A stretch of 64,000 bases of DNA from Agromyces sp. Marseille-P2726. GTDB lineage: Bacteria; Actinomycetota; Actinomycetes; Actinomycetales; Microbacteriaceae. The notes beneath the pieces were generated by a model, which made no database searches, was not told where the DNA came from, and saw nothing but the letters and a program-made list of their open reading frames with translations. Shown here in pieces: positions 16,333 to 47,417 of this stretch (the stretch's first letter is position 1; the number at the start of each line of letters is the position of its first letter). Location of the stretch: the NCBI RefSeq assembly GCF_902809835.1, contig NZ_CADDWM010000015.1:806001-870000 (forward strand). Direction: 5' to 3'. Position numbers and translations under genes: made by a program.

Positions 16333-16604
16333 GGGAACTCCCCCTCTGTCATGGGCCTGAGAGTTTCACGCGACGTGACGCGCTTTCACCATCGGCGACT
16401 CCGGCATCGCGCGGAGTTCTCGATGCGCGTCGTCGCTGACGTCGCCCTTCGAGCTGCTCCGCACTCCGCTCGGGAGCACTTTTCAGAGCGGCCTCGTCAT
16501 CGCGGTGTGTGTGACCTGAGAGATTGGCGGGGAGGCTTGCTCCTTCGGTGCGGGCAGTGCTGTCGGAGTGGTGTGCCCCCACAGCCTGCCGGCTCTCCCG
16601 CGAT
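16333..16604 (-). ncRNA. Tandem glycine riboswitch upstream of gcvT
   Basis: Two glycine aptamer-like units in series on the minus strand. The upstream unit (about 16604-16475) begins GGGAGAG and contains the conserved CACCGAAGGAGCAA and CTCTCAGGTCA cores. The second (about 16450-16333) has GCCGATGGTGAAAGC, CTCTCAGGCCCATGACAGAGG and the closing GGGGGAG. Context before the glycine cleavage operon matches known gcv riboswitches, which switch expression on when glycine is abundant. There is no U-run after it; two short hairpins lie between it and the GTG, so control may be at translation or by an atypical terminator. Confidence 0.9.
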
Positions 16605-16637
16605 GCGTCGATGGCCCGGTATGCGGTTGTACGGCTG

Positions 16638-35060: not shown

Positions 35061-36755
35061 TCAGCCGAGCGTGACCCCCCGCGCGGACATGAACGGCACT
35101 GGGTCGATCTGCGTCCCGCCCTCGTAGACCTCGAAGTGAAGATGGCACCCGGTCGCGGCACCGGTCGCCCCCGACCATCCGATCTGCTCCCCGGCTGCGA
35201 CCTGTCGGCCGACGCTCACGAGGATGCCGCCGTCGACCAGGTGGGCGTATCCGGTGTCGATGCCCGAACCGTGGGCGATCTTGATGAAGTTCCCGTACGT
35301 TCCGACCGGACCGGCCGTGCTGACGCGTCCTGCGGAAGCAGCGTAGATCGGCGCCCAGCACCCGGTTCCGATGTCGACACCCCGGTGGAACGACTGCGAG
35401 CAGCCGCCCGGCGTGCAGATCGGGTCTCGCGGACCGAACGCGCCGGTGATCCGACCCGTCGCCGGCTTCGCCCACCCGATCGCGCACGCCGTGCCGGCGG
35501 CGACCTCTTCGCCGACCACGGCGGATCCGCCCAGAATGACCCGCGCCGGCGGAGCCAGTTCATTGAGCGCGAGCGACACGGGATGCGGAATGCACGCGGT
35601 TCGGGTGAGGTACAACGGTGCGAGCAACCCGCCGGCCAGGGCCGCGCCGGCGAGCGCATCGGCGAAATCGCCACCGGTCGCGAGGAACGCACTCGTCGGC
35701 TTCGTCCCGCCGAACACGGCGGCATTGATCGCCGCCGCCGTCTGGAAGCGATCGAGCCCCTCGTGGCGGAGGACCGCGAACCCGTTGGCGGCGAGCTCCT
35801 GCTCGATGGCCGCGCTGACGGCGCCGCTGCCTCCCGCGATCCGCACGGTCCAGGCACCCAGTGCAGCTAAGGCTTCGACCGTCCCTGGTCGAAGCGATGG
35901 TGAGAGCCCGTCGACGAGGTACACCGGCGCACCCAGCCGGCCGGCTGCGGCCGACGCCGCGAGCGCGTCGGGGAAGTCCCGGCCGGTTGCGATGAAGGCC
36001 TCGGTGACCGTGGAGAAGGCCTCGTCCACCAGGAGTCGAGCCGTCTCGAAACGGTCGGCTCCCCCGAGGCGGTCGATGCTGATGCCGGGCAGCAACGCCG
36101 CGAGTTCCGCCTGAACTCCGGCGCCGACGACGCCTTCGCCGCCGGCGATGATGACGCGCTGCGGCGCGAGCCGCGTGATCTCGGTCCGCACCACGGCGGG
36201 AAGGGCCTCAGCCTGCGTCAGGAGCAGCGGCCCACCGTGATGCGCCGCCGCAGCCGCCGCGGACAGCGCGTCGGGGAAGTCGGCGCCCGTTGCGACATAC
36301 AGCACCGGGACTCCGGGGGAGAACCGTTGCGAGATCGCGACCGCCGTCTCGAAGCGGTCGGCTCCGGCGAGGCGATGCACGCCCGGTTCGAACGGAGTGA
36401 TGACGCTTTCCGCGGCCATGAGCGCCGTCGGCGCGAGAGCCTTGGCGCGGTCCACGGTGCGGTCGAGCGGCGCCGGCTCAGGTTCTGCCGTCTCGGGTTC
36501 GGCAGACGGCTCCGGCCCGGGCAACGACTCAGTCGCAGGTGCCGGCTCGGGCACCGGTTCCGGCTCGGAGTACGGACCTGATTCCGGCTGCCCCTCGGGC
36601 TCGCTCGCGCGCAGGGGCTCGGGACTCCGGCCCGACACGGACACCGTCGAGGGCTCCGGGACGACCTCCGCTGCCAGGGCAGGACTGGTCGTGCCGAAGA
36701 CGAAGACGGCGACCGCCCCGATGGCGACGGCATGCATTCGCGTCCTTGGATGCAC
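35061..36755 (-). CDS. Secreted CWB2-repeat protein with C-terminal M23 peptidase
   Basis: About 564 residues from the GTG at 36755, chosen because it gives a signal peptide with a basic start (HPRTRMHAV), hydrophobic core and SPALA cleavage site, with GGAGG upstream. Residues about 30-100 are a Pro/Glu/Ser-rich spacer (repeated PEPEP-type runs). Three cell-wall-binding type-2 repeats follow, each with RLxGADRFETA or LDRFQTA and ATGxDFPDAL-type motifs. The C-terminal M23 domain has FHRGVDIG and HLHFE metal ligands intact. It should attach to the wall and cut peptidoglycan peptides outside the cell. Its spacer would project the binding modules through the wall. Confidence 0.9.
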   Translation of the reverse strand: MHPRTRMHAVAIGAVAVFVFGTTSPALAAEVVPEPSTVSVSGRSPEPLRASEPEGQPESGPYSEPEPVPEPAPATESLPGPEPSAEPETAEPEPAPLDRTVDRAKALAPTALMAAESVITPFEPGVHRLAGADRFETAVAISQRFSPGVPVLYVATGADFPDALSAAAAAAHHGGPLLLTQAEALPAVVRTEITRLAPQRVIIAGGEGVVGAGVQAELAALLPGISIDRLGGADRFETARLLVDEAFSTVTEAFIATGRDFPDALAASAAAGRLGAPVYLVDGLSPSLRPGTVEALAALGAWTVRIAGGSGAVSAAIEQELAANGFAVLRHEGLDRFQTAAAINAAVFGGTKPTSAFLATGGDFADALAGAALAGGLLAPLYLTRTACIPHPVSLALNELAPPARVILGGSAVVGEEVAAGTACAIGWAKPATGRITGAFGPRDPICTPGGCSQSFHRGVDIGTGCWAPIYAASAGRVSTAGPVGTYGNFIKIAHGSGIDTGYAHLVDGGILVSVGRQVAAGEQIGWSGATGAATGCHLHFEVYEGGTQIDPVPFMSARGVTLG

Positions 36756-36949
36756 AGCGGGCCCCCCTCCGCTCGCGAACGCCTCCCCGCGGTCCGCTCT
36801 TCGCAGTGTAGGGGAACAGGTCCGCGGTGGAGCGGAATTCGCGCGCACCGCGTCGCTGCTGCGGCATCCCCCCTCGGATCGGAACGTCGTGCGATGGAGA
36901 GCCCCCGAGCTCCGGTAGGCGCATACGGCTGCGGACATGCGACATGACG

Positions 36950-37576: not shown

Positions 37577-38650
37577 CTACACGTTGAAGCGGAACTCGAC
37601 CACGTCGCCGTCCTGCATGACGTAGTCCTTGCCTTCCATGCGGGCCTTGCCCTTCGCCCGGGCCTCCGCGACCGATCCGGCGGCCACGAGGTCGTCGAAC
37701 GAGATGACCTCCGCCTTGATGAACCCCTTCTCGAAGTCGGTGTGGATCACGCCGGCCGCCTGAGGTGCCTTCCACCCCTTGTGGATCGTCCAGGCGCGCG
37801 ACTCCTTGGGCCCGGCGGTCAGGTAGGTCTGCAGGCCGAGCGTGTCGAAGCCCACGCGGGCGAGCTGGTCGAGACCCGACTCGTCCTGTCCGGTCGACGC
37901 GAGGAGCTCCGCGGCATCCGCGGCGTCGAGGTCGATGAGCTCCGACTCGATCTTGGCGTCGAGGAAGACGGCCTCTGCCGGCGCGACGAGCGCTGCGAGC
38001 TCCGCCCTGCGCGCGGCATCCGTCAGCGTCGCCTCGTCGACGTTGAAGACGTAGATGAACGGCTTCGCGGTGAGCAGGCCGAGTTCGCGGATGGGCGTGA
38101 GATCGACGGATGACGCACTGAGCGGAGTCGCCCGCTGCAGCACGTCCTGCGCCTCCACCGCAGCGGCCAGCACCGAGGGGTCGAGCTTCCTGCCCTTGAC
38201 CTCCTTCTCGTACCGCGCGATGGCGCGCTCGAGGGTCTCGAGGTCGGCGAGGATCAGCTCGGCGTTGATCGTCTCCATGTCGGCCTTCGGGTCGATCCTG
38301 CCTTCGACGTGCGCGACGTCGGAGTCCTCGAATCCGCGCACGACCTGAGCGATCGCGTCGGCCTCGCGGATGTTCGCGAGGAACTTGTTGCCGAGCCCCT
38401 CACCCTCCGACGCACCGCGCACGATGCCCGCGATATCGACGAAGGACACCGCCGCGGGCAGGATGCGCTCGGACCCGAAGATCTCGGCCAGCTTCTCGAG
38501 CCGCGGGTCGGGAAGGTTCACCACGCCGATGTTCGGCTCGATCGTCGCGAACGGGTAGTTCGCCGCGAGCACCTGGTTCTTGGTCAGGGCGTTGAAGAGG
38601 GTCGACTTGCCGACGTTCGGGAGTCCGACGATTCCGATGGTGAGTGCCAC
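37577..38650 (-). CDS. ychF: Redox-regulated ribosome-binding ATPase YchF
   Basis: A 357-residue Obg-family P-loop protein (Ola1/YchF), universally conserved, with ATPase preference and a role in translation and oxidative stress. GLPNVGKST is at residues 9-17, the helical hairpin lies in the middle, and the C-terminal TGS domain contains AWTIHKGWKAPQAAGVIHTDFEKGFIKAEV. The start is a GTG. It begins six bases after the stop of the EamA gene, so the two can form an operon; a TACGAT box eight bases before the GTG could also give a separate leaderless mRNA. Confidence 0.97.
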   Translation of the reverse strand: MALTIGIVGLPNVGKSTLFNALTKNQVLAANYPFATIEPNIGVVNLPDPRLEKLAEIFGSERILPAAVSFVDIAGIVRGASEGEGLGNKFLANIREADAIAQVVRGFEDSDVAHVEGRIDPKADMETINAELILADLETLERAIARYEKEVKGRKLDPSVLAAAVEAQDVLQRATPLSASSVDLTPIRELGLLTAKPFIYVFNVDEATLTDAARRAELAALVAPAEAVFLDAKIESELIDLDAADAAELLASTGQDESGLDQLARVGFDTLGLQTYLTAGPKESRAWTIHKGWKAPQAAGVIHTDFEKGFIKAEVISFDDLVAAGSVAEARAKGKARMEGKDYVMQDGDVVEFRFNV

Positions 38651-38656
38651 GGGCGT

Positions 38657-39571
38657 CTATCGTACCGCCAGGCCCGCGGCGGCATCCGTCGGGCCGACCT
38701 TCGATCGCGGCTGGTGCAGCGTCAAGTAGACGCCCGCGATGACGATCGCGCCGCCGATGGCGGCGGGCGGGTCGACCGTGGCGCCGAACGCGATGGCGAT
38801 GAGCACCGTGAACACGGGCAGCAGGTTCAGGAAGATGCCGGCACGTGCCGGGCCCACCCGTGATGCGCCGATGTTCCAGAGCGCGTAGCCGGCCATCGAC
38901 GGGAACACCACGATGTAGGCGAGCCCGACCACGCCAGCGGCCGACGAGGGCAGCGAGACGCCGGTGAACGCGATGAGCGGCAGCATCGTGACGACCGCGA
39001 ACACCGCCTGCACCGAGGTCGCGGTGATCGGCGGCGTCACGAGGCGTCGCGAGATGAGCGAGTACACGGTCCAGGCGAGCACCGAGCCGATGACGAGCAG
39101 GTCGCCGACGCCGAAGCCCTGCTCGACGAGCTGTCCGAGGTCGCCGCCGGTGAGCACGATCGAGACGCCGACGAACGCCACGGCGATGCCGAGCGCCTGC
39201 AGCCGGTTCAGCCGCTCGTGCAGGAAGATGGCCGCACCGAGGGCGATCGTGGCCGGATTGATCGCGCTGATGACCGCCGCGTTCACCGCACCGGTGAGTC
39301 CGAGCGCCGCATAGAGCAGCAGCGTGTACCCGGTCAGGCCGAGCAGCGACTGCAGCAGGTGCAGCCTCCACTCCCGCCATGCCTCACGCCAGTCGGGCCG
39401 CTCGATCAGCCACGCGAGCGCGATGAGGGGCAGCACCGCGAACGCCCACCGGAAGAACGTCAACGAGATCGGCGAGATCTCGCGCGTGACCATCTCGCCG
39501 AAGACGTAGTTGCCGGCCCAGAAGAGGTTGGCGAGGGCCAGGAAGAGGTACATCCGGCCGCGGTGGTTCAC
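38657..39571 (-). CDS. EamA/DMT-family transporter
   Basis: A 304-residue ten-span drug/metabolite exporter with two EamA halves: LFLALANLFWAGNYVFGEMVTREISP opens the first, LVIGSVLAWTVYSLISRR the second, and IGASRVGPARAGIFLNLLPVFTVLIA marks the conserved late segment. Substrate is unknown. The GTG start comes exactly six bases after TAGGCT on the minus strand, suggesting a leaderless mRNA that runs on into ychF, six bases downstream. It is unrelated in regulation to the MarR-linked EamA gene at 30570-31535. Confidence 0.9.
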   Translation of the reverse strand: MNHRGRMYLFLALANLFWAGNYVFGEMVTREISPISLTFFRWAFAVLPLIALAWLIERPDWREAWREWRLHLLQSLLGLTGYTLLLYAALGLTGAVNAAVISAINPATIALGAAIFLHERLNRLQALGIAVAFVGVSIVLTGGDLGQLVEQGFGVGDLLVIGSVLAWTVYSLISRRLVTPPITATSVQAVFAVVTMLPLIAFTGVSLPSSAAGVVGLAYIVVFPSMAGYALWNIGASRVGPARAGIFLNLLPVFTVLIAIAFGATVDPPAAIGGAIVIAGVYLTLHQPRSKVGPTDAAAGLAVR

Positions 39572-39783: not shown

Positions 39784-39849
39784 ATGATCGCGCGCTGCAG
39801 CAGACGCGGATGGGGCATTCGGGGGCCCGACGATGACGGCTCGCGATGA
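39784..39849 (+). CDS. 21-residue upstream frame overlapping the CHAT gene start
   Basis: The ATG has a strong ribosome site (AAGGGGGAT, seven bases away) and opens a short Arg-rich peptide (MIARCSRRGWGIRG...). It ends at 39849, 16 bases inside the CHAT gene in another frame. The CHAT ATG at 39833 has only a weak site of its own, so ribosomes loaded here may reinitiate on it. A leader-peptide role is inferred. Confidence 0.4.
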   Translation: MIARCSRRGWGIRGPDDDGSR

Positions 39850-41941
39850 CCGGATCGAGGCACGGGGCCCGCTGCGCGTGGAGCCCGGATTGCCCGATGA
39901 GGCATGGATTCCGCCGGTCGGCGGCGCCGAACTCGCGCGCGCGAGCGTCGTCGGCACGGGAGAGGGCACGCCGGTGCTCATGTTCTTCATGCCCGATGAC
40001 GTCGACCCGCGGCGGGTGGTCGTGTTCGTGCGTGTCGGCACCCTGCTCTGCTCGCTCGCACCGACGCGGGCGGGCGATCGCTACGAGGTCGAGCTGCCGT
40101 TCAACCTCGGGTCGCGCACGGCACTCGTCGTCGTGCTCGAGTGCCGAAGCGAGGCGGATGCCACGGAGCTGGTGAAGCGCTACGACGCGAGCCGAGTGCG
40201 CCTCGACGAGGAGGAGCGCGCCGAGACCGGAGCCGAGCCGCCGCCCGAGGAGGCCGCGGCGGAACCCGAGCCGCGACGGGTGCCGTCCAGGACGCGATCC
40301 ATCCCTCCTTCCATGGCACCACCACCCCTCGAGGCGGCGCCGGTGGAGGCGATGCCCGCCAACGGCCACGAAGCGCTCGCACACGTGCACGCCGAGATGC
40401 CGAAGCGCGTCGTCGTCGAGACGCCGGTCGAGGTGCGATTCCGTCTCAGCAGGCGCCGGCTCGCGGCATCCGAAGGAAGCAGCCACACCGAGCAGTCGAT
40501 TCGGGTCGATACCGATCGTGACGTCACGGTGACCATCGCACTGCGCGGATTCCGCCTGGCCGACGGCGAGGCCGACACGGTCGCAGTGCGACTGCCGGAC
40601 TCGGCCGACGCGGTCGCCGAGCACCGCTTCACGATCGTCGCGCCGCGAACCGGAAAGGGCGAGGTGTCGCTGGCAGTGCGGCAGAACGCGGACCTGCCGA
40701 TCGCGACGTTGCGGATCACGTCGGACATCGTGGCGGCGGGGGCCCGCGACGACGAGATCGAAGCCAACGAGGTCGACGCCGAGGTCGTCGACCCCGACCC
40801 CGAGCTCGTGCGACTGCCGAGCATCCGCATCGACGAGTCGATCGTGGGCAACGACTCCACCCTCCGCATCCGCGTCACCGTCGCGGGCATCACGCGGGAG
40901 TGCACGAAGGCCCTGCCCGACAAGGCGGCGTTCATCGCCCGCACGTATCGGGTGGTCGCCGGGATCCGAGCTGAACTCCGGGACATCCGGGATGTCGCCG
41001 AACGCCGCCGACACGGCGTCCGCCGACTCCGCGACCTCGGCATGGGACTTGCTCGCGCCCTGTTCAGCACCGACGTGCTCGACCTGCTCTGGGAGGCTGC
41101 GCCCGGCGAACTCGAGGGGCTCATCGTGCAGACCACCGGCGAGCTCGACATCCCCTGGGAGATCGTGCACCTCGTGCCGCCGTCCGGCGCCGACGACGGC
41201 CAGGAGCGCTTCCTCAGCGGCTTCGGCCTCACCCGGTGGGTGTACGACACCGCCCATCCGACCGAGCTGCACATCGAGCCAGCGCGGGCGCGCTACGTCT
41301 GCCCCATGTACGTCGAGCGGCGACTGCACCTCACCCACGCGGTGGAGGAACGGCGCTTCATGGAGGACGAGTTCCAGGCGACGACCGTCGACCCCGACGA
41401 CGCCGGAGGCATCGCAGCCCTCATGCACAGCGGCTTCGACCTGCTGCACTTCGCTGGCCACGGGCGCTGGAGCGCCGTCATCCCGCCCGCCCAGGAGCTC
41501 CTGCTGGCCGGCTTCCGAGAGGCGGTGGATGTCCCAGGCGCCCGCTACTCCGACGGGGAGCTCCGCAACGACCTCCCCGACGTCGGTGCAGCGGATGCCG
41601 CGGCCACTGGTCCGTTCGTCTTCCTGAACGCATGCGACATCGGCCGCCTGCCCTCCGGCCCGGCCGCGCTCGGCGGATTCCCCGAGGCATTCCTGCGCGG
41701 CGGCGCCGCCGCCTTCGTCGGATGCTCCTGGGCGGTCGGCGACGACCCCGCCTCCGCCTTCGTCGAGGGGTTCTACCGCGCGCTCGCCGCGCCGGGCACG
41801 ACGATCGCCGACGCCACCCGGATCGCCCGCCTCGCGGCCCGCAAGGAGGCCGATCTCTCGGAGCACGCCTACGCCGTGTACGCGCATCCGCACGCGCACG
41901 TCTTCGTCGATCGACCGACACCGGAAGGACCAGGATCATGA
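39833..41941 (+). CDS. CHAT-domain cysteine protease
   Basis: A 702-residue multidomain protein. Residues 1-115 look beta-rich (VLMFFMPDDVDPRRVVVFVRVGT), 120-185 form a Pro/Glu linker, 190-300 a second beta-rich region (VTVTIALRGFRLADGEADTVAV), and about 420-690 the CHAT (caspase HetF-associated with TPRs) protease domain. The His/Cys pair is present: His543 in LLHFAGHG and Cys601 in FLNACDIG, as is the WEIVHL entry strand. No TPR repeats or trypsin domain are seen. The neighbouring overlapping gene encodes a caspase-like protease, so the two probably act together. The regulator and target of proteolysis are unknown. Codon use matches neighbours. Confidence 0.88.
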   Translation: MTARDDRIEARGPLRVEPGLPDEAWIPPVGGAELARASVVGTGEGTPVLMFFMPDDVDPRRVVVFVRVGTLLCSLAPTRAGDRYEVELPFNLGSRTALVVVLECRSEADATELVKRYDASRVRLDEEERAETGAEPPPEEAAAEPEPRRVPSRTRSIPPSMAPPPLEAAPVEAMPANGHEALAHVHAEMPKRVVVETPVEVRFRLSRRRLAASEGSSHTEQSIRVDTDRDVTVTIALRGFRLADGEADTVAVRLPDSADAVAEHRFTIVAPRTGKGEVSLAVRQNADLPIATLRITSDIVAAGARDDEIEANEVDAEVVDPDPELVRLPSIRIDESIVGNDSTLRIRVTVAGITRECTKALPDKAAFIARTYRVVAGIRAELRDIRDVAERRRHGVRRLRDLGMGLARALFSTDVLDLLWEAAPGELEGLIVQTTGELDIPWEIVHLVPPSGADDGQERFLSGFGLTRWVYDTAHPTELHIEPARARYVCPMYVERRLHLTHAVEERRFMEDEFQATTVDPDDAGGIAALMHSGFDLLHFAGHGRWSAVIPPAQELLLAGFREAVDVPGARYSDGELRNDLPDVGAADAAATGPFVFLNACDIGRLPSGPAALGGFPEAFLRGGAAAFVGCSWAVGDDPASAFVEGFYRALAAPGTTIADATRIARLAARKEADLSEHAYAVYAHPHAHVFVDRPTPEGPGS

Positions 41942-44253
41942 CCACCACACGTCCGCCGAGCCCATCCGCTCCCCCGGCGCCGCCGACCGCGGCCGCACCC
42001 GAGGCGCCTCGAGGCGGTCCGAAGCTCACGGCCGACGAACTCGCGGCGCTCCGCCCGCATGTGATCACCCTCGAAGACGGCAAGCTCGCCGACGGCGGCC
42101 GCACCGAACCGCGTTCGGTCGCGGACTTCCGCACCACTGCGGCCGACATCGACGCGATCTTCGACGAGCACCTCCCCGCCTTCGCGGCCGACCATGAGCC
42201 CGGTCCCCTCCCAGTGGTGCTGTATGCGCACGGCGGACTCGTCGACAAGGAGGCGGGATTCGCGATCGCCGCGCAGCAGATCGACTGGTGGAAGGAGAAC
42301 GGCGTCTATCCGATCCACTTCGTCTGGGAGACCGGCCTCGGCCCCGCGCTCTGGGATGCCCTGCGGCGCTGGGCGTCGGGCGGTCGCCGCGGCTGGGTCG
42401 ACGAGGCCAAGGACACGTTCCTCGAGGTCGCCGCTCGGCTGCTCGGTGGTGGCGGGATCTGGAGCGACATGAAGATCGATGCCGCCGCGGCATCCGTCGA
42501 CGGTGGTGGCGGACGCTACTTCGTGAAGGCCCTCGGAAAGTGGATGACCGAGCACCCGGGTGAGATCGTCGTGCACGCGGTCGGGCACAGCGCCGGTTCG
42601 ATCTTCCACTCGCACCTGCTCTCGGCGGCACTCGAGGAGCACGTTCCCGAGATCGAGTCGCTGAACCTCCTCGCGCCCGCGGTGCGCATCGACACCTTCT
42701 CGAAGCTGCTGCTCCCCCATGCGAAGAGCCGCAAGATCCGCCGTGTCGCCATCTTCACGATGACCGACAAGGCCGAGCGGGACGACACGTGCCTGCGCAT
42801 CTACAACAAGTCGCTGCTCTATCTCGTCTCGGCGTCGTTCGAGCCGCAGAAGGCCACGCCCATCCTGGGCATGGCGAAGTACCTCACGCGAGACGCCGAG
42901 CTGGCAGCGTTCTTCAGCGGTGACTCGGCCGCCGGCGACCTCGTCCTCGCGCCGTCCGCGGTCGGTGTCCGCACTGGAAGCGCGGCCACGGCGCACGGGG
43001 ACTTCGACAACGACCCCGCCACCATGGAGAGCGTCGCGCGACGTGTGGCCGGCATCGTCGACGTGACGCCGTTCCCGAAGGGTCGTGGGCGTGCAGCGGC
43101 CCCGTGGCCCCAGTATGTCGACGTGCCCGCGGACGCGGCGAACGTGTCCGGCGCGATGGGTTCCCGATCGACGGGCGGTACCCCGCCCGATGGGGCGGCG
43201 CCCGGCGGGACTCCGAGCGCCCGCCGCGCCCTCTGCATCGGCATCAACGAGTACCCCGATGTCGGCGACCGCCTGCAGGGCTGCGTGCCCGACGCGAAGG
43301 CGTGGGCCGGGGCGTTGCGGACGGCGGGGTTCGAGGTCACCGAACTGACGGAGCCTGCGAAGACCACCCGCGACGAGATCCTCCGAGGCATCCTCGAACT
43401 CGTGAGCCAGTCGGTGCCCGGCGACGTGCTCGCCGTGCAGTACTCGGGCCACGGCACGTTCGCGCCCGATCTCGACTCCGAGGAGCCCGATGCGAAAGAC
43501 GAAGCCCTCTGCCCCGTCGACTTCCGGCAGAACGGTCGCCTCATCATCGACGACGATCTTGCACGGATCTGGGACGTCATTCCCGAGGGCGTGAGCCTGA
43601 CGGCATTCTTCGACAGCTGCCACTCGGGCTCGGCCAACCGGCAGCCCGACGTCGACCTCGCGCCGATCGGCGATGCGCTTCCGCGCGCCGTGGAGCTGAC
43701 CCGCGACGACGAGGAGGCCTACCGCGCCGACCGCGGTGTCGGGGTCGGCACGCGCGACGGCGACGAGCCCGACCCAGTGCGTGCCGCGGCGGTCGCGAGC
43801 GTGCTCGCCGCGGAGCGGGTCTCGCCCCCGGCTCCGCGCGCCGCCGGCGTGCGCCGCGAGATCCTGTTCAGCGCCTGCAAGGCGAGCGAGGTCGCGTGGG
43901 AGTCGCGCGGACAGGGCGACTTCACCCGCAACGCGCTGCCGCACCTCGGGCGCGGCGTCGGCACGGTGTCGAACCTCGAGTTCCTGAATTCGGTCGTCGC
44001 GGCGTTCGGCGACAACCGGCGGCAGACGCCCGAGTTCCACGGCGAGGAGGTGCTCGGGGGTCGCGTCCTGCTCGGCTCGGTGAGCGCGACGGCACCGGAT
44101 GCCGCGACGGCGGCGGCCGCGATCACCGCGCCGTTCACGGGCACCCCGCCGGTCACGGGCACCGCGCCCGATCGCGGCGGTGCGGCATCCGACCGTCGGA
44201 TGGCGGCGATCGCCGCCATCCTGCGCGCGACCGCAGACCTCTTGGAGCCGTGA
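41938..44253 (+). CDS. Alpha/beta-hydrolase-like domain fused to a caspase-like (C14) protease
   Basis: A 771-residue protein whose ATG overlaps the CHAT gene stop (ATGA). After a Pro/Ala-rich start, residues about 60-300 resemble an alpha/beta hydrolase: VVLYAHGGLVDKEAG supplies an oxyanion HGG and HAVGHSAGS the nucleophile elbow with Ser218. A Gly/Ser-rich link (about 385-425) leads to a metacaspase/caspase-like domain (426-715) with ALCIGINEYP, catalytic His505 in YSGHGTF and Cys561 in FFDSCHSGS, plus the FSACKASEVAWE strand. The Ala/Thr/Pro-rich tail is probably disordered. All expected catalytic residues are present in both domains. No named system was recognised; association with CHAT suggests a protease relay or effector unit. 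Confidence 0.87.
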   Translation: MTTTRPPSPSAPPAPPTAAAPEAPRGGPKLTADELAALRPHVITLEDGKLADGGRTEPRSVADFRTTAADIDAIFDEHLPAFAADHEPGPLPVVLYAHGGLVDKEAGFAIAAQQIDWWKENGVYPIHFVWETGLGPALWDALRRWASGGRRGWVDEAKDTFLEVAARLLGGGGIWSDMKIDAAAASVDGGGGRYFVKALGKWMTEHPGEIVVHAVGHSAGSIFHSHLLSAALEEHVPEIESLNLLAPAVRIDTFSKLLLPHAKSRKIRRVAIFTMTDKAERDDTCLRIYNKSLLYLVSASFEPQKATPILGMAKYLTRDAELAAFFSGDSAAGDLVLAPSAVGVRTGSAATAHGDFDNDPATMESVARRVAGIVDVTPFPKGRGRAAAPWPQYVDVPADAANVSGAMGSRSTGGTPPDGAAPGGTPSARRALCIGINEYPDVGDRLQGCVPDAKAWAGALRTAGFEVTELTEPAKTTRDEILRGILELVSQSVPGDVLAVQYSGHGTFAPDLDSEEPDAKDEALCPVDFRQNGRLIIDDDLARIWDVIPEGVSLTAFFDSCHSGSANRQPDVDLAPIGDALPRAVELTRDDEEAYRADRGVGVGTRDGDEPDPVRAAAVASVLAAERVSPPAPRAAGVRREILFSACKASEVAWESRGQGDFTRNALPHLGRGVGTVSNLEFLNSVVAAFGDNRRQTPEFHGEEVLGGRVLLGSVSATAPDAATAAAAITAPFTGTPPVTGTAPDRGGAASDRRMAAIAAILRATADLLEP

Positions 44254-44309: not shown

Positions 44310-45101
44310 TCAGCCCCGGCGGGCGCGGGAGCACCGGGTCACGGACGGCACCGCGAGCTCCCCGGCGCCTTCGATGTCGGGGTGCGTCTCGAGCAGCGTC
44401 TCGAGTGCGGCGATCGTGGCCGCCTGATCCGCCTCGGAAGCGGTGATGAAGTGGCTGCGTGATCGCACGAGGTCGAGGAACCTCGTGCGCGACATCCGCT
44501 CGGACCACTCGACCGTGTGCTCCTCGATGGGGCCGAACGGCCTGCCGATCCTCACGTAGTCCTCGAACGTCGTGCTCGCATCGTGGCGCTCGTGCATGAT
44601 CTCGCCGGCCTGGCGCAGCCAGTCGGCGCGGTTGTCGCGGCTGTTCCAGACCAGCCCGAGCACGCCGCCGGGGCGCAGCACTCGAGCGATCTCGGGCACC
44701 GCCCGCTCTGGGACGAACCAGTGCCACGCCTGGCCTGCGACGACGGCGTCGACGGACGCGTCCTCGAGGGGGATGTCCTCCGCGGTGCCCAGGATGCGAG
44801 GAACCCCCGGCACTGCCACCTCGAGCTCCTCGAGCATCTCCTCGACCGGATCGACCGCGATCGCGTCGCGATCGAGTGCGACGAGCGCCTCGGTGAGCTT
44901 GCCGGTGCCGGCACCGAGGTCGAGCACGCGCTCGGCGTCGCCGATGAGCCAGGCGATCGCCTCGACCGGATAGCCGGGCCTCGCCTGACGGTAGACGGAT
45001 GCCGCGGCGCCGAACGAACGCGCCGAACTCAGGGTCTGAGGGTCGGCGGGATCGGCGACGAGGCCGTCGTGGGTCGCGGTGCGGTCGGCGATGTCGCTCA
45101 C
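44310..45101 (-). CDS. Class I SAM-dependent methyltransferase
   Basis: About 263 residues from a GTG at 45101. The SAM-binding motif I reads VLDLGAGTGKL, followed by DAIAVDPVEEML and the motif-IV-like region EDASVDAVVAGQAWHWF, which places it in the UbiE/Methyltransf_11 group that often carries AxAxHW. The C-terminal half (about residue 160 on) is a helical cap with RSRSHFITASEADQAATIAAL. The substrate is unknown; small molecules are likely. It is convergent with the caspase gene and divergent from the exonuclease, so it is not part of the CHAT operon. Confidence 0.82.
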   Translation of the reverse strand: MSDIADRTATHDGLVADPADPQTLSSARSFGAAASVYRQARPGYPVEAIAWLIGDAERVLDLGAGTGKLTEALVALDRDAIAVDPVEEMLEELEVAVPGVPRILGTAEDIPLEDASVDAVVAGQAWHWFVPERAVPEIARVLRPGGVLGLVWNSRDNRADWLRQAGEIMHERHDASTTFEDYVRIGRPFGPIEEHTVEWSERMSRTRFLDLVRSRSHFITASEADQAATIAALETLLETHPDIEGAGELAVPSVTRCSRARRG

Positions 45102-45986: not shown

Positions 45987-47417
45987 ATGGACCTGATCGC
46001 ACTTCTCCTGGGCCTCGTCATCGGCGCCGTCGTCGGCGGCCTGGCCGTCGCCGTCTGGTCGTCACGGCGCCGCGCCGGCGCTCCGGCGGCCGAAGATCCT
46101 GCCCTCATCGAGGCGCGGCACCAGGCGCAGCTGGCCGAGGTGCGGGCGGCCGAGGCGGCCGCGATGTCCGAGCTCCGTGCGCACGAGCAGGAGGCCCGGG
46201 CCCGTCTCCAGGCCGACCTCGCATCCGCCATGTCGACCGTCGAGGGCCTCGAGCAGCAGATCGAGGAGCACCGGGCACGCTACCGCGACCTCGTCGAGCA
46301 GCAGCGAAGCGACCAGGCCGAGCGCGAAGCGCGGGCGAAGCGCGAGAGCGCCGTCCTCGAGGCGCTGAGCCCGGTGCGCGAGACGCTGCAGACCATGCAC
46401 ACGAAGGTCGCCGAGCTCGAGCGGCAGCGCAGCGAGCAGTACGGTTCGATCGCCGAACAGCTGAAGCAGGCCCAGCTCTCCGACGCCGAGCTCCGTGCCA
46501 CGACCGAGTCGCTCGCCTCGGCGCTGCGATCCAACAGCACTCGCGGCGTCTGGGGCGAGACGCAGCTGCGGCGTGTGGTCGAGGCGGCCGGGCTCACCCA
46601 GTACGTCGACTTCTTCACGCAGCAGAGCATCGTGACCGACGCCGGGTCGGGCCGCCCCGACATGGTCGTGCGCCTCCCCGGCAGCAAGTCGATCCCGCTC
46701 GATGCCAAGGTGCCGCTCGAGCATTACCTCGAGGCGAGCCAGATCCCGTTCACGGCCACCGGAGACGAGGGTGCGCGGCGCAAGGAGCTCATCACCCGGC
46801 ACGTGCGGGCGGTGCGCAGCCACATCGACTCCCTCGCGAAGAAGACGTACTGGGAGGGCCTCGACGCGAGCCCCGAGTTCGTGATCGCCTTCATTCCGAG
46901 CGAGTCGCTGCTGTCGTCGGCGCTCGAGGCCGACCCGGCACTGCTCGACTACGCCTTCGGCAAGCGAGTGGCCCTCGCCTCGCCGGTGAACCTCTGGGCG
47001 GTGCTGAAGACCGTGGCCTTCACGTGGCAGCAGCAGGCTGTGTCTGATGAAGCCAAGAAGCTCTTCGATCTCGGCAACACGCTCTATCAGCGCATCGGCA
47101 CCTTGGCGGGCCACGCCGACGGGCTGCGCAAGGCCATCGAGCGCACGGTCGACAGCTACAACAAGTTCGCGAACTCGCTCGAGTCGCGCGTGCTCGTGAC
47201 CGCGCGTCAGTTCCCGGGTATCGACGAAACGAAGGTCGCGCTCCTCGCGGCGCCGGCCGCCGTGCACCAGCAGCCGAAGCGGCTCACCGCGCCCGAGGTC
47301 ACCGAGGCGGTCGTGGTCGACGAGTTCGACACCCGCGAGGCCGAGGGCGAAACCCTGCTCGAGCTCGATCCAGAGATCCGCCGGCAGCTCGAGATCGGCG
47401 AGAACTCGACCGACTGA
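45987..47417 (+). CDS. rmuC: DNA recombination protein RmuC
   Basis: A 476-residue RmuC-family protein with an N-terminal membrane anchor (residues 2-26, LIALLLGLVIGAVVGGLAVAVW), a long Ala/Glu/Gln-rich coiled coil to about 170, and the conserved nuclease-like RmuC domain at about 180-420 (RGVWGETQLRRVVEAAGL, DAKVPLEHYLEA, SPEFVIAFIPSE, ASPVNLWAVLKTVAFTWQQ). RmuC limits rearrangements at inverted repeats in E. coli, though its biochemistry is not well known. The ATG follows GACACT by six bases. The C-terminus is acidic and variable. Single-gene unit convergent with an MFS exporter. Confidence 0.93.
   Translation: MDLIALLLGLVIGAVVGGLAVAVWSSRRRAGAPAAEDPALIEARHQAQLAEVRAAEAAAMSELRAHEQEARARLQADLASAMSTVEGLEQQIEEHRARYRDLVEQQRSDQAEREARAKRESAVLEALSPVRETLQTMHTKVAELERQRSEQYGSIAEQLKQAQLSDAELRATTESLASALRSNSTRGVWGETQLRRVVEAAGLTQYVDFFTQQSIVTDAGSGRPDMVVRLPGSKSIPLDAKVPLEHYLEASQIPFTATGDEGARRKELITRHVRAVRSHIDSLAKKTYWEGLDASPEFVIAFIPSESLLSSALEADPALLDYAFGKRVALASPVNLWAVLKTVAFTWQQQAVSDEAKKLFDLGNTLYQRIGTLAGHADGLRKAIERTVDSYNKFANSLESRVLVTARQFPGIDETKVALLAAPAAVHQQPKRLTAPEVTEAVVVDEFDTREAEGETLLELDPEIRRQLEIGENSTD

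Follow-up and report, generated by a model that had tools for sequence, protein, structure and literature searches.

The window analysed here is a stretch of 64,000 nucleotides from Agromyces sp. Marseille-P2726 (assembly GCF_902809835.1, contig NZ_CADDWM010000015.1, positions 806,001 to 870,000 of the forward strand), and it carries two overlapping genes, one for a DUF7363-CHAT protein (protein 1) and one for a metacaspase-like caspase with an alpha/beta-hydrolase-like N-terminal half (protein 2). We show that the CHAT, hydrolase and caspase domains are inherited as one unit in Agromyces, and that among the sampled copies the catalytic residues of CHAT are kept only alongside an intact caspase partner. 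We suggest that this three-enzyme unit could act as a CHAT/caspase proteolytic switch over an envelope-directed hydrolase, with catalytically dead copies serving as decoys or inhibitors, a reading to which we give about an even chance. Both open reading frames (ORFs) are open throughout; proteins are measured in amino acids (aa), and the features of the pair are as follows.

39833..41941, + strand: gene 1, DUF7363-CHAT protein, 702 aa (ORF call and Pfam)
40391..40717, + strand: DUF7363 (PF24063), immunoglobulin (Ig)-like beta-sandwich, residues 187-295 (Pfam E 2.8e-29)
41072..41854, + strand: CHAT domain, residues 414-674 (Pfam E 1.8e-17)
41459-41461, + strand: CHAT His543, motif AGHG (alignment)
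41633-41635, + strand: CHAT Cys601, motif NACD (alignment)
41938..41941, + strand: ATGA stop/start overlap of genes 1 and 2
41938..44253, + strand: gene 2, alpha/beta-hydrolase-caspase fusion, 771 aa (ORF call and Pfam)
42028..43077, + strand: alpha/beta-hydrolase-like region, approximately residues 31-380 (24-member alignment; weak Pfam matches of relatives)
42589-42591, + strand: hydrolase Ser218 in GHSAG; further hydrolase residues are HGG98-100, Glu280/Asp283 and His353 (24-member alignment)
43222..44040, + strand: caspase (C14) domain, residues 429-701 (Pfam Peptidase_C14 E 2.3e-21)
43450-43452, + strand: caspase His505, motif SGHG (alignment)
43618-43620, + strand: caspase Cys561, motif DSCHSG (alignment)
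44188..44250, + strand: conserved C-terminal helix-like tail, residues 751-771, ending in AILRATADLLE, after a variable linker

The ATGA overlap and five catalytic residues (His543, Cys601, Ser218, His505 and Cys561) had been named in the original prediction, and both were confirmed, the overlap at 41938-41941 and every residue, by alignment, at its predicted position.

Inheritance of CHAT, hydrolase and caspase as one unit

A full hydrolase-caspase was found in 10 of the 60 Agromyces genomes searched. In 9 of these 10 carriers the CHAT gene lies directly upstream, in the same order and at the same site between ychF and rmuC, and the tenth, A. cavernae, has a fusion only. The conserved two-gene unit put forward in the original prediction, to be given up if the two genes rarely occurred together, thus survived the check made within the genus (9 of 10 adjacent, 1 fused), and linkage at one site plus the fused copies rules out chance neighbours. 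Agromyces sp. Soil535 holds a second copy in which CHAT, hydrolase and caspase form a single ORF of 1497 aa with intact catalytic residues, and the pair is present in the window's order in another genus of the same family (G045). Pairwise distances of CHAT and hydrolase-caspase co-vary across the 9 genomes (Mantel r 0.97, permutation p 0.0001), for which shared descent alone may suffice.

Sixteen Agromyces genomes without a live pair were searched for rmuC, which was located in 15. At 14 of these 15 sites ychF, an exonuclease gene and rmuC follow in the window's order within 14 kb with no match to the pair; other genes sometimes intervene, and the methyltransferase gene is present at 13 of the 14 (A. 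cavernae included), being absent in G629. The fifteenth site, in G609, holds a lone CHAT. The pair evolves faster than most of its neighbours, RmuC being as variable or more: identity to Soil535, G621 and G642 is 61-65% for CHAT and 70-74% for the hydrolase-caspase, against 91-92% for YchF, 83-85% for the methyltransferase, 77-88% for the MFS protein and 58-92% for RmuC.

An alternative is that the unit performs housekeeping proteolysis at the envelope and plays no part in conflict, CHAT and caspase maturing or turning over envelope proteins and the hydrolase remodelling lipids or lipoproteins. All six flanking genes scanned (Pfam, ychF to MFS) are housekeeping genes and the site is fixed, as this alternative would have it. 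We nevertheless consider it improbable, as the pair is patchy (9 of 60 Agromyces genomes, with 14 of 15 other located sites empty of it and a dead CHAT alone in G609), outpaces most neighbours (RmuC excepted), and recurs as the same unit, with broken active sites, wired into the MoxR/VMAP-like operons described below.

Full-length matches to protein 2 were found in 6 of 199 genomes of the family (G000, G079, G045, G078, G141 in two pieces, and G193). In the phylum survey, which scored no more than the top two candidates of each genome, 5 of 396 genomes had a match to protein 2 at 1e-20, full-length only in two Agromyces. DUF7363 was above its cut-off in 2 of 396 phylum genomes, both Agromyces, which rules it out as a widespread marker; the stretches around three weaker DUF7363 matches contained no relative of protein 1 or protein 2.

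Live and dead CHAT copies

Searched at 1e-10, protein 1 has matches in 17 of the 60 Agromyces genomes, made up of the 10 carriers, 6 genomes with a solo CHAT-like gene and G626, whose CHAT is a different one. The solo genes (G609, G646, G615, G619, G603 and G602) stand at the pair's site, and the genus search found a full hydrolase-caspase in none of these six genomes. The CHAT cysteine is changed to Thr in G609 and to Ser in G646, and the genes of G615, G619 and G603 (419-471 aa as called) have neither the His block nor the Cys; G602, truncated by a contig end, is left out of the count, and 5 of the 5 assessable copies without a partner have lost the Cys. Wherever the caspase partner is intact, in 11 of 11 copies (9 pairs, the Soil535 fusion and G045), CHAT has both its His and its Cys. 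Genome G603 additionally contains, at G603:C30:5974-9229, a caspase match that looks unrelated and, ~2.4 kb from it on the other strand, a second, weak CHAT match; the two are possibly a further pair.

Hydrolase-caspases found without a protein-1-like CHAT keep their catalytic residues in 4 of 4 cases (G078, G193, G141 and a Kovacikia plasmid). Set beside the loss of catalysis in partnerless CHATs, this points to CHAT catalysis being in the service of the caspase and not the reverse, so that the catalytic pattern provides an evolutionary argument for what the CHAT protease activity is for. The wiring could conversely run from caspase to CHAT, or the two proteases could hit separate cellular targets with the hydrolase as an accessory. 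The existence of hydrolase-caspases without such a CHAT agrees with these schemes, as do the caspase and CHAT genes that overlap in the opposite order in L130, and no result fixes the direction; given the contrast of 5 of 5 with 4 of 4, we assign them a low probability.

In two genomes the unit also occurs as a larger fusion with an N-terminal SAV_2336 domain, called here the SAV fusion:

L004 6477-12260: SAV fusion of A. cavernae, 1927 aa
L065 6797-12595: SAV fusion of G621, 1932 aa

The order in both is SAV_2336 domain (340.6 bits in A. cavernae and 344.8 in G621, cut-off 200), hydrolase, caspase, DUF7363 and CHAT, and the C-terminal tail of protein 2 (AILRATADLLE) was not found in either. 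Both carry C601F in CHAT and H98Q in the hydrolase, and the caspase has H505Q in A. cavernae and C561S in G621; the latter genome holds a live pair together with a dead SAV fusion. Adjoining the fusions are a MoxR-like AAA gene (bpMoxR 24.3 and 23.9 bits, below the cut-off of 27), a caspase-VMAP-C gene (VMAP-C 41.0 and 46.5 bits, cut-off 27) whose caspase keeps its SGHG and DAC motifs, and a further alpha/beta-hydrolase gene (Abhydrolase_6 30 bits in L004, cut-off 26.3; the L065 copy is 89% identical). By its sequence and position we read SAV_2336 as a putative vWA component. According to the available text of PMC7159879, an alpha/beta-hydrolase gene always lies beside the genes of VMAP proteins that contain a caspase, and where the vWA component carries a caspase, a VMAP caspase is nearly always there too; the gene set around the SAV fusions fits these statements.

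Inactivation of the solo CHATs has probably occurred repeatedly. In the CHAT tree the live G598 lies within the solo dead CHATs, forming a clade with the truncated set and G609 (100%) which is joined by G646 (93%), with 46% on the branch that separates G598 from the truncated set. Setting this weak node aside, the nesting would mean at least two inactivations, in addition to those of the SAV pair. For the hydrolase-caspase, the SAV copies cluster with the live copy of G621 itself (100%); their CHAT clusters with G627 and G622 (99%), a discordance that can be read either as recombination or as rate change.

Ratios of nonsynonymous to synonymous change (dN/dS, by Nei-Gojobori counts) between the two SAV fusions are 0.17 for the SAV domain, 0.23 for the hydrolase, 0.20 for the caspase, 0.27 for the between-region and 0.29 for DUF7363-CHAT; among the solo CHATs of G615, G619 and G603 they are 0.17-0.24. 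For the window's live pair against Soil535, G621 and G642 they are 0.36-0.49 for CHAT and 0.25-0.31 for the hydrolase-caspase, and up to 0.70 against distant genomes. The values of 0.17-0.29 for the close dead copies indicate purifying selection, and these copies are thus not decaying freely. The dead CHATs might be left over from loci in decay, or be orphan inhibitors of the antitoxin type, and not decoys aimed at an invader; we consider this unlikely, although not strongly so. The solo genes do occupy the site of the live pair, and in G622 a truncated dead CHAT lies downstream of the live pair, as expected of an inhibitor. However, free decay is improbable for G615, G619 and G603, less clearly for G609 and G646, and an inhibitor that has no target would be hard to maintain unless the target arrives horizontally.

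Relatives elsewhere and the proposed switch

Further members of the hydrolase family were sampled by opening 10 of the 20 listed plasmid matches (169 records matched), plus two phylum genomes. Kovacikia aside, 12 of 12 such copies are linked to a cysteine peptidase: 8 are fused behind a papain-like part and 4 are followed by a caspase-like gene. The papain-like label is based on Pfam C1 (L028, L128, L129), annotation (L030, L033), similarity (L131) or motifs only (two in L029), and the caspase-like label on annotation (L031), Pfam (L032) or similarity to the L032 copy (L132, L133). The C1 peptidase-hydrolase fusions, from rhizobial and Burkholderiales plasmids and the two phylum genomes, share the hydrolase family and its conserved residues with the window, but pair it with a papain-like partner instead of a caspase.

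In 3 of 3 genomes of another genus a flotillin gene lies directly downstream of the hydrolase-caspase on the same strand, and a Kovacikia (cyanobacterium) plasmid encodes an Amidase_2-hydrolase-caspase fusion with Amidase_2 at the N-terminus (L027 8224-11208). These two associations are hints, and no more, of an envelope target; the flotillin neighbour and the peptidoglycan amidase would suit housekeeping work at the envelope too. The stretches with hydrolase-caspase and flotillin (L022, L023 and L024) also have, adjoining, a second caspase gene and a divergent gene of the HEXXH (metalloprotease-like) type.

Two units of other make-up were found. In G626 (L127 5759-11098) a CHAT gene, its CHAT match having an hhalign E of 9e-22, precedes a gene for a caspase protein with a C-terminal DUF7379/PGAP1-like hydrolase, which is the reverse domain order. 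In G333, from another family of the phylum (L130 6274-9524), caspase and CHAT genes overlap by 4 bases, with no hydrolase. It follows that CHAT, caspase and hydrolase have been combined more than once.

We propose a proteolytic switch in which the CHAT protein and the caspase would work on one another; most likely CHAT would start the reaction and the caspase would amplify it. Under the control of this switch would stand the alpha/beta-hydrolase, which is tied to the caspase through a variable linker, residues 381-428, and is likely to be the terminal effector; once freed, it would probably attack an envelope ester or lipid of the cell itself, so that a cell under attack would commit suicide or be arrested. 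A link to phage attack, and with it a role in defence, is part of the proposal. The original interpretation finds partial support, in the conserved unit, the retained catalytic residues, the lack of a system-specific PADLOC match and the beta-rich domain; its suggestions that CHAT would activate the caspase and that the hydrolase would act on membrane lipid stay at the level of inference. DUF7363, the fusions, the dead copies and the MoxR/VMAP link were absent from it.

The dead copies may be kept as non-enzymatic decoys or inhibitors, standing solo at the same site or serving a MoxR/VMAP machine as its effector or sensing arm. Integrated decoys are known from plant immune receptors. By analogy, the CHAT-hydrolase-caspase unit could be a resident death unit targeted by invaders, with the matched broken-site copies baiting the invader's inhibitor or restraining the live unit, an idea that we put forward tentatively. 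The available text of PMC7159879 already proposes, in general terms for VMAP systems, that inactive enzymes act as decoys of their active counterparts. What was general in 2020 becomes here a concrete matched set in one genus, comprising a live unit, solo dead relatives and a dead fusion, so that the decoy idea can be tested with a handful of genes.

Several observations weigh against the switch and decoy reading. The window's pair is not in a defence island, its six flanking genes scanned being housekeeping genes. Two pattern-based scans of viral_contigs gave no relative of the pair, and plasmid and phage matches are partial, except for the one Kovacikia plasmid. CHAT is not obligatory, because a hydrolase-caspase occurs in G078, G141 and G193 (another genus), where no protein-1-like CHAT was found, and in Kovacikia with none within 20 kb. 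Both SAV fusions retain Ser218 and His353, so that their hydrolase may not be dead, and catalytic residues are only marginally over-represented among the changed invariant positions of these fusions (Fisher p 0.048 and 0.067). The contrast of 11 of 11 with 5 of 5 represents fewer than 16 independent events, as G615, G619 and G603 belong to a single lineage. In A. cavernae the dead fusion occurs with no live pair, which speaks somewhat against its being a simple inhibitor and also against its being the decoy of a resident enzyme. Wider dN/dS among dead copies, including G609 against G646 and against the live G598, is 0.37-0.58, and constraint on the dead CHATs of G609 and G646 appears less clear. 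Separately, a mobile or phage origin of the pair was considered and rejected on the outcome of the two viral_contigs scans and the single, partial caspase match among phages.

Domain assignments, described systems and surroundings of the pair

Protein 1 belongs to the CHAT family PF12770 (64.2 bits, cut-off 24, with the His543/Cys601 dyad), and up to an E of 1 its Pfam matches are DUF7363, CHAT and Peptidase_C25 only; its profile has a single match in the PDB, 8rot, at E 3e-05. The AlphaFold2 (AF2) model is confident for DUF7363 only, with ten-residue blocks from 181 to 280 at a predicted local distance difference test (pLDDT) of 74-90. The beta-rich region foreseen in the CHAT protein was borne out, as AF2 and fold comparison model DUF7363 as an Ig-like sandwich. 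Ankyrin-B and UNC5b rows, which we take to be UPA domains, top or enter its fold list, but only an Ig-like sandwich is claimed, because rival Ig-like rows (transglutaminase, complement) stand within 1-2 Z.

Protein 2 belongs to the caspase family C14 (PF00656; 77 bits, cut-off 21.4, with His505/Cys561). Its family profile is nearest by sequence to metacaspases and GSU0716 in the PDB (best 4f6o, E 2.9e-32, caspase part only). The hydrolase half has no Pfam match of its own, and its relatives match DUF900 or Abhydrolase_6 weakly, below the cut-off. All 24 of the 24 aligned hydrolase members (15 of the window type, 7 C1 fusions and 2 separate) share HGG98-100, Ser218, Glu280 and His353 without change. 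The AF2 model of protein 2, built on a shallow alignment, has a mean pLDDT of 34, too low for the model to be usable.

CHAT proteases act with caspases in CRISPR systems, type III CRISPR having SAVED-CHAT and a caspase cascade. The window's pair is similar in that a CHAT protease would work with a caspase, but protein 1 has no SAVED or TPR match up to E 1 (which separates it from SAVED-CHAT and from the TPR-CHAT of Craspase), the window has no CRISPR-like series, and the caspase here carries a hydrolase. SAVED-CHAT is mentioned in the available text of PMC11417357. The absence of CRISPR, as originally predicted, was upheld by a simple script that looked for array-like series of exact 18-mers across the window and found none.

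In the Canu caspase-nuclease defence, as far as described in the available text of PMC12799240, a caspase likewise controls a second enzyme and an Ig-like domain is part of the system; here, by contrast, the controlled enzyme would be a putative serine hydrolase, the Ig-like domain sits on the CHAT protein and the pair has no nuclease. The caspase domain also resembles the EACC1-caspase systems, matching NF047832 weakly, but at 18.8 bits against a cut-off of 140 it falls outside that family.

The pairing of a caspase with an alpha/beta-hydrolase is known from the VMAP ternary systems, as the available text of Kaur et al. 2020 (PMC7159879) describes, and the unit's own SAV fusions in A. cavernae and G621 stand in a MoxR/VMAP-like operon. 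The window's pair differs from VMAP/MoxR-vWA systems in that no MoxR AAA, vWA protein or VMAP is found among its six flanking genes scanned (Pfam). Profile comparison gave no support for identity of the window's hydrolase with the VMAP-associated one (hhalign E 0.12, not significant). The original statement that no named system has this pairing is too strong in the light of the VMAP description and of the CHAT-caspase partnership in CRISPR systems; what stands is that PADLOC gave no system-specific match, only its generic 'caspase' model on protein 2 and nothing on protein 1. The coupling to CHAT and the sets of live and dead copies are new: the word CHAT has 0 occurrences in the main text of PMC7159879, and among the best-ranked matches in the open-licence literature we found no report of a CHAT-hydrolase-caspase unit with DUF7363, of the live/dead pattern or of a matched dead fusion.

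The conserved site of the pair is bordered by the following genes.

37577..38650, - strand: ychF GTPase gene, left border of the site
38657..39571, - strand: EamA transporter gene, context
44310..45080, - strand: methyltransferase gene, context
45987..47417, + strand: rmuC, right border of the site

The original prediction had noted no NTPase gene nearby; the GTPase gene ychF (37577-38650) contradicts this literally, and, being a housekeeping gene, leaves the sense of it intact. The window's own genome contains one further, different CHAT gene (L026 8397-10277, G000:C12). Elsewhere in the window, a large protein that by eye has cell-wall-binding-like repeats and a peptidase-like C-terminus is encoded at 35061-36938 (- strand), and tandem glycine riboswitch aptamers (RF00504, 56.3 and 34.8 bits) lie at 16336-16610 (- strand).

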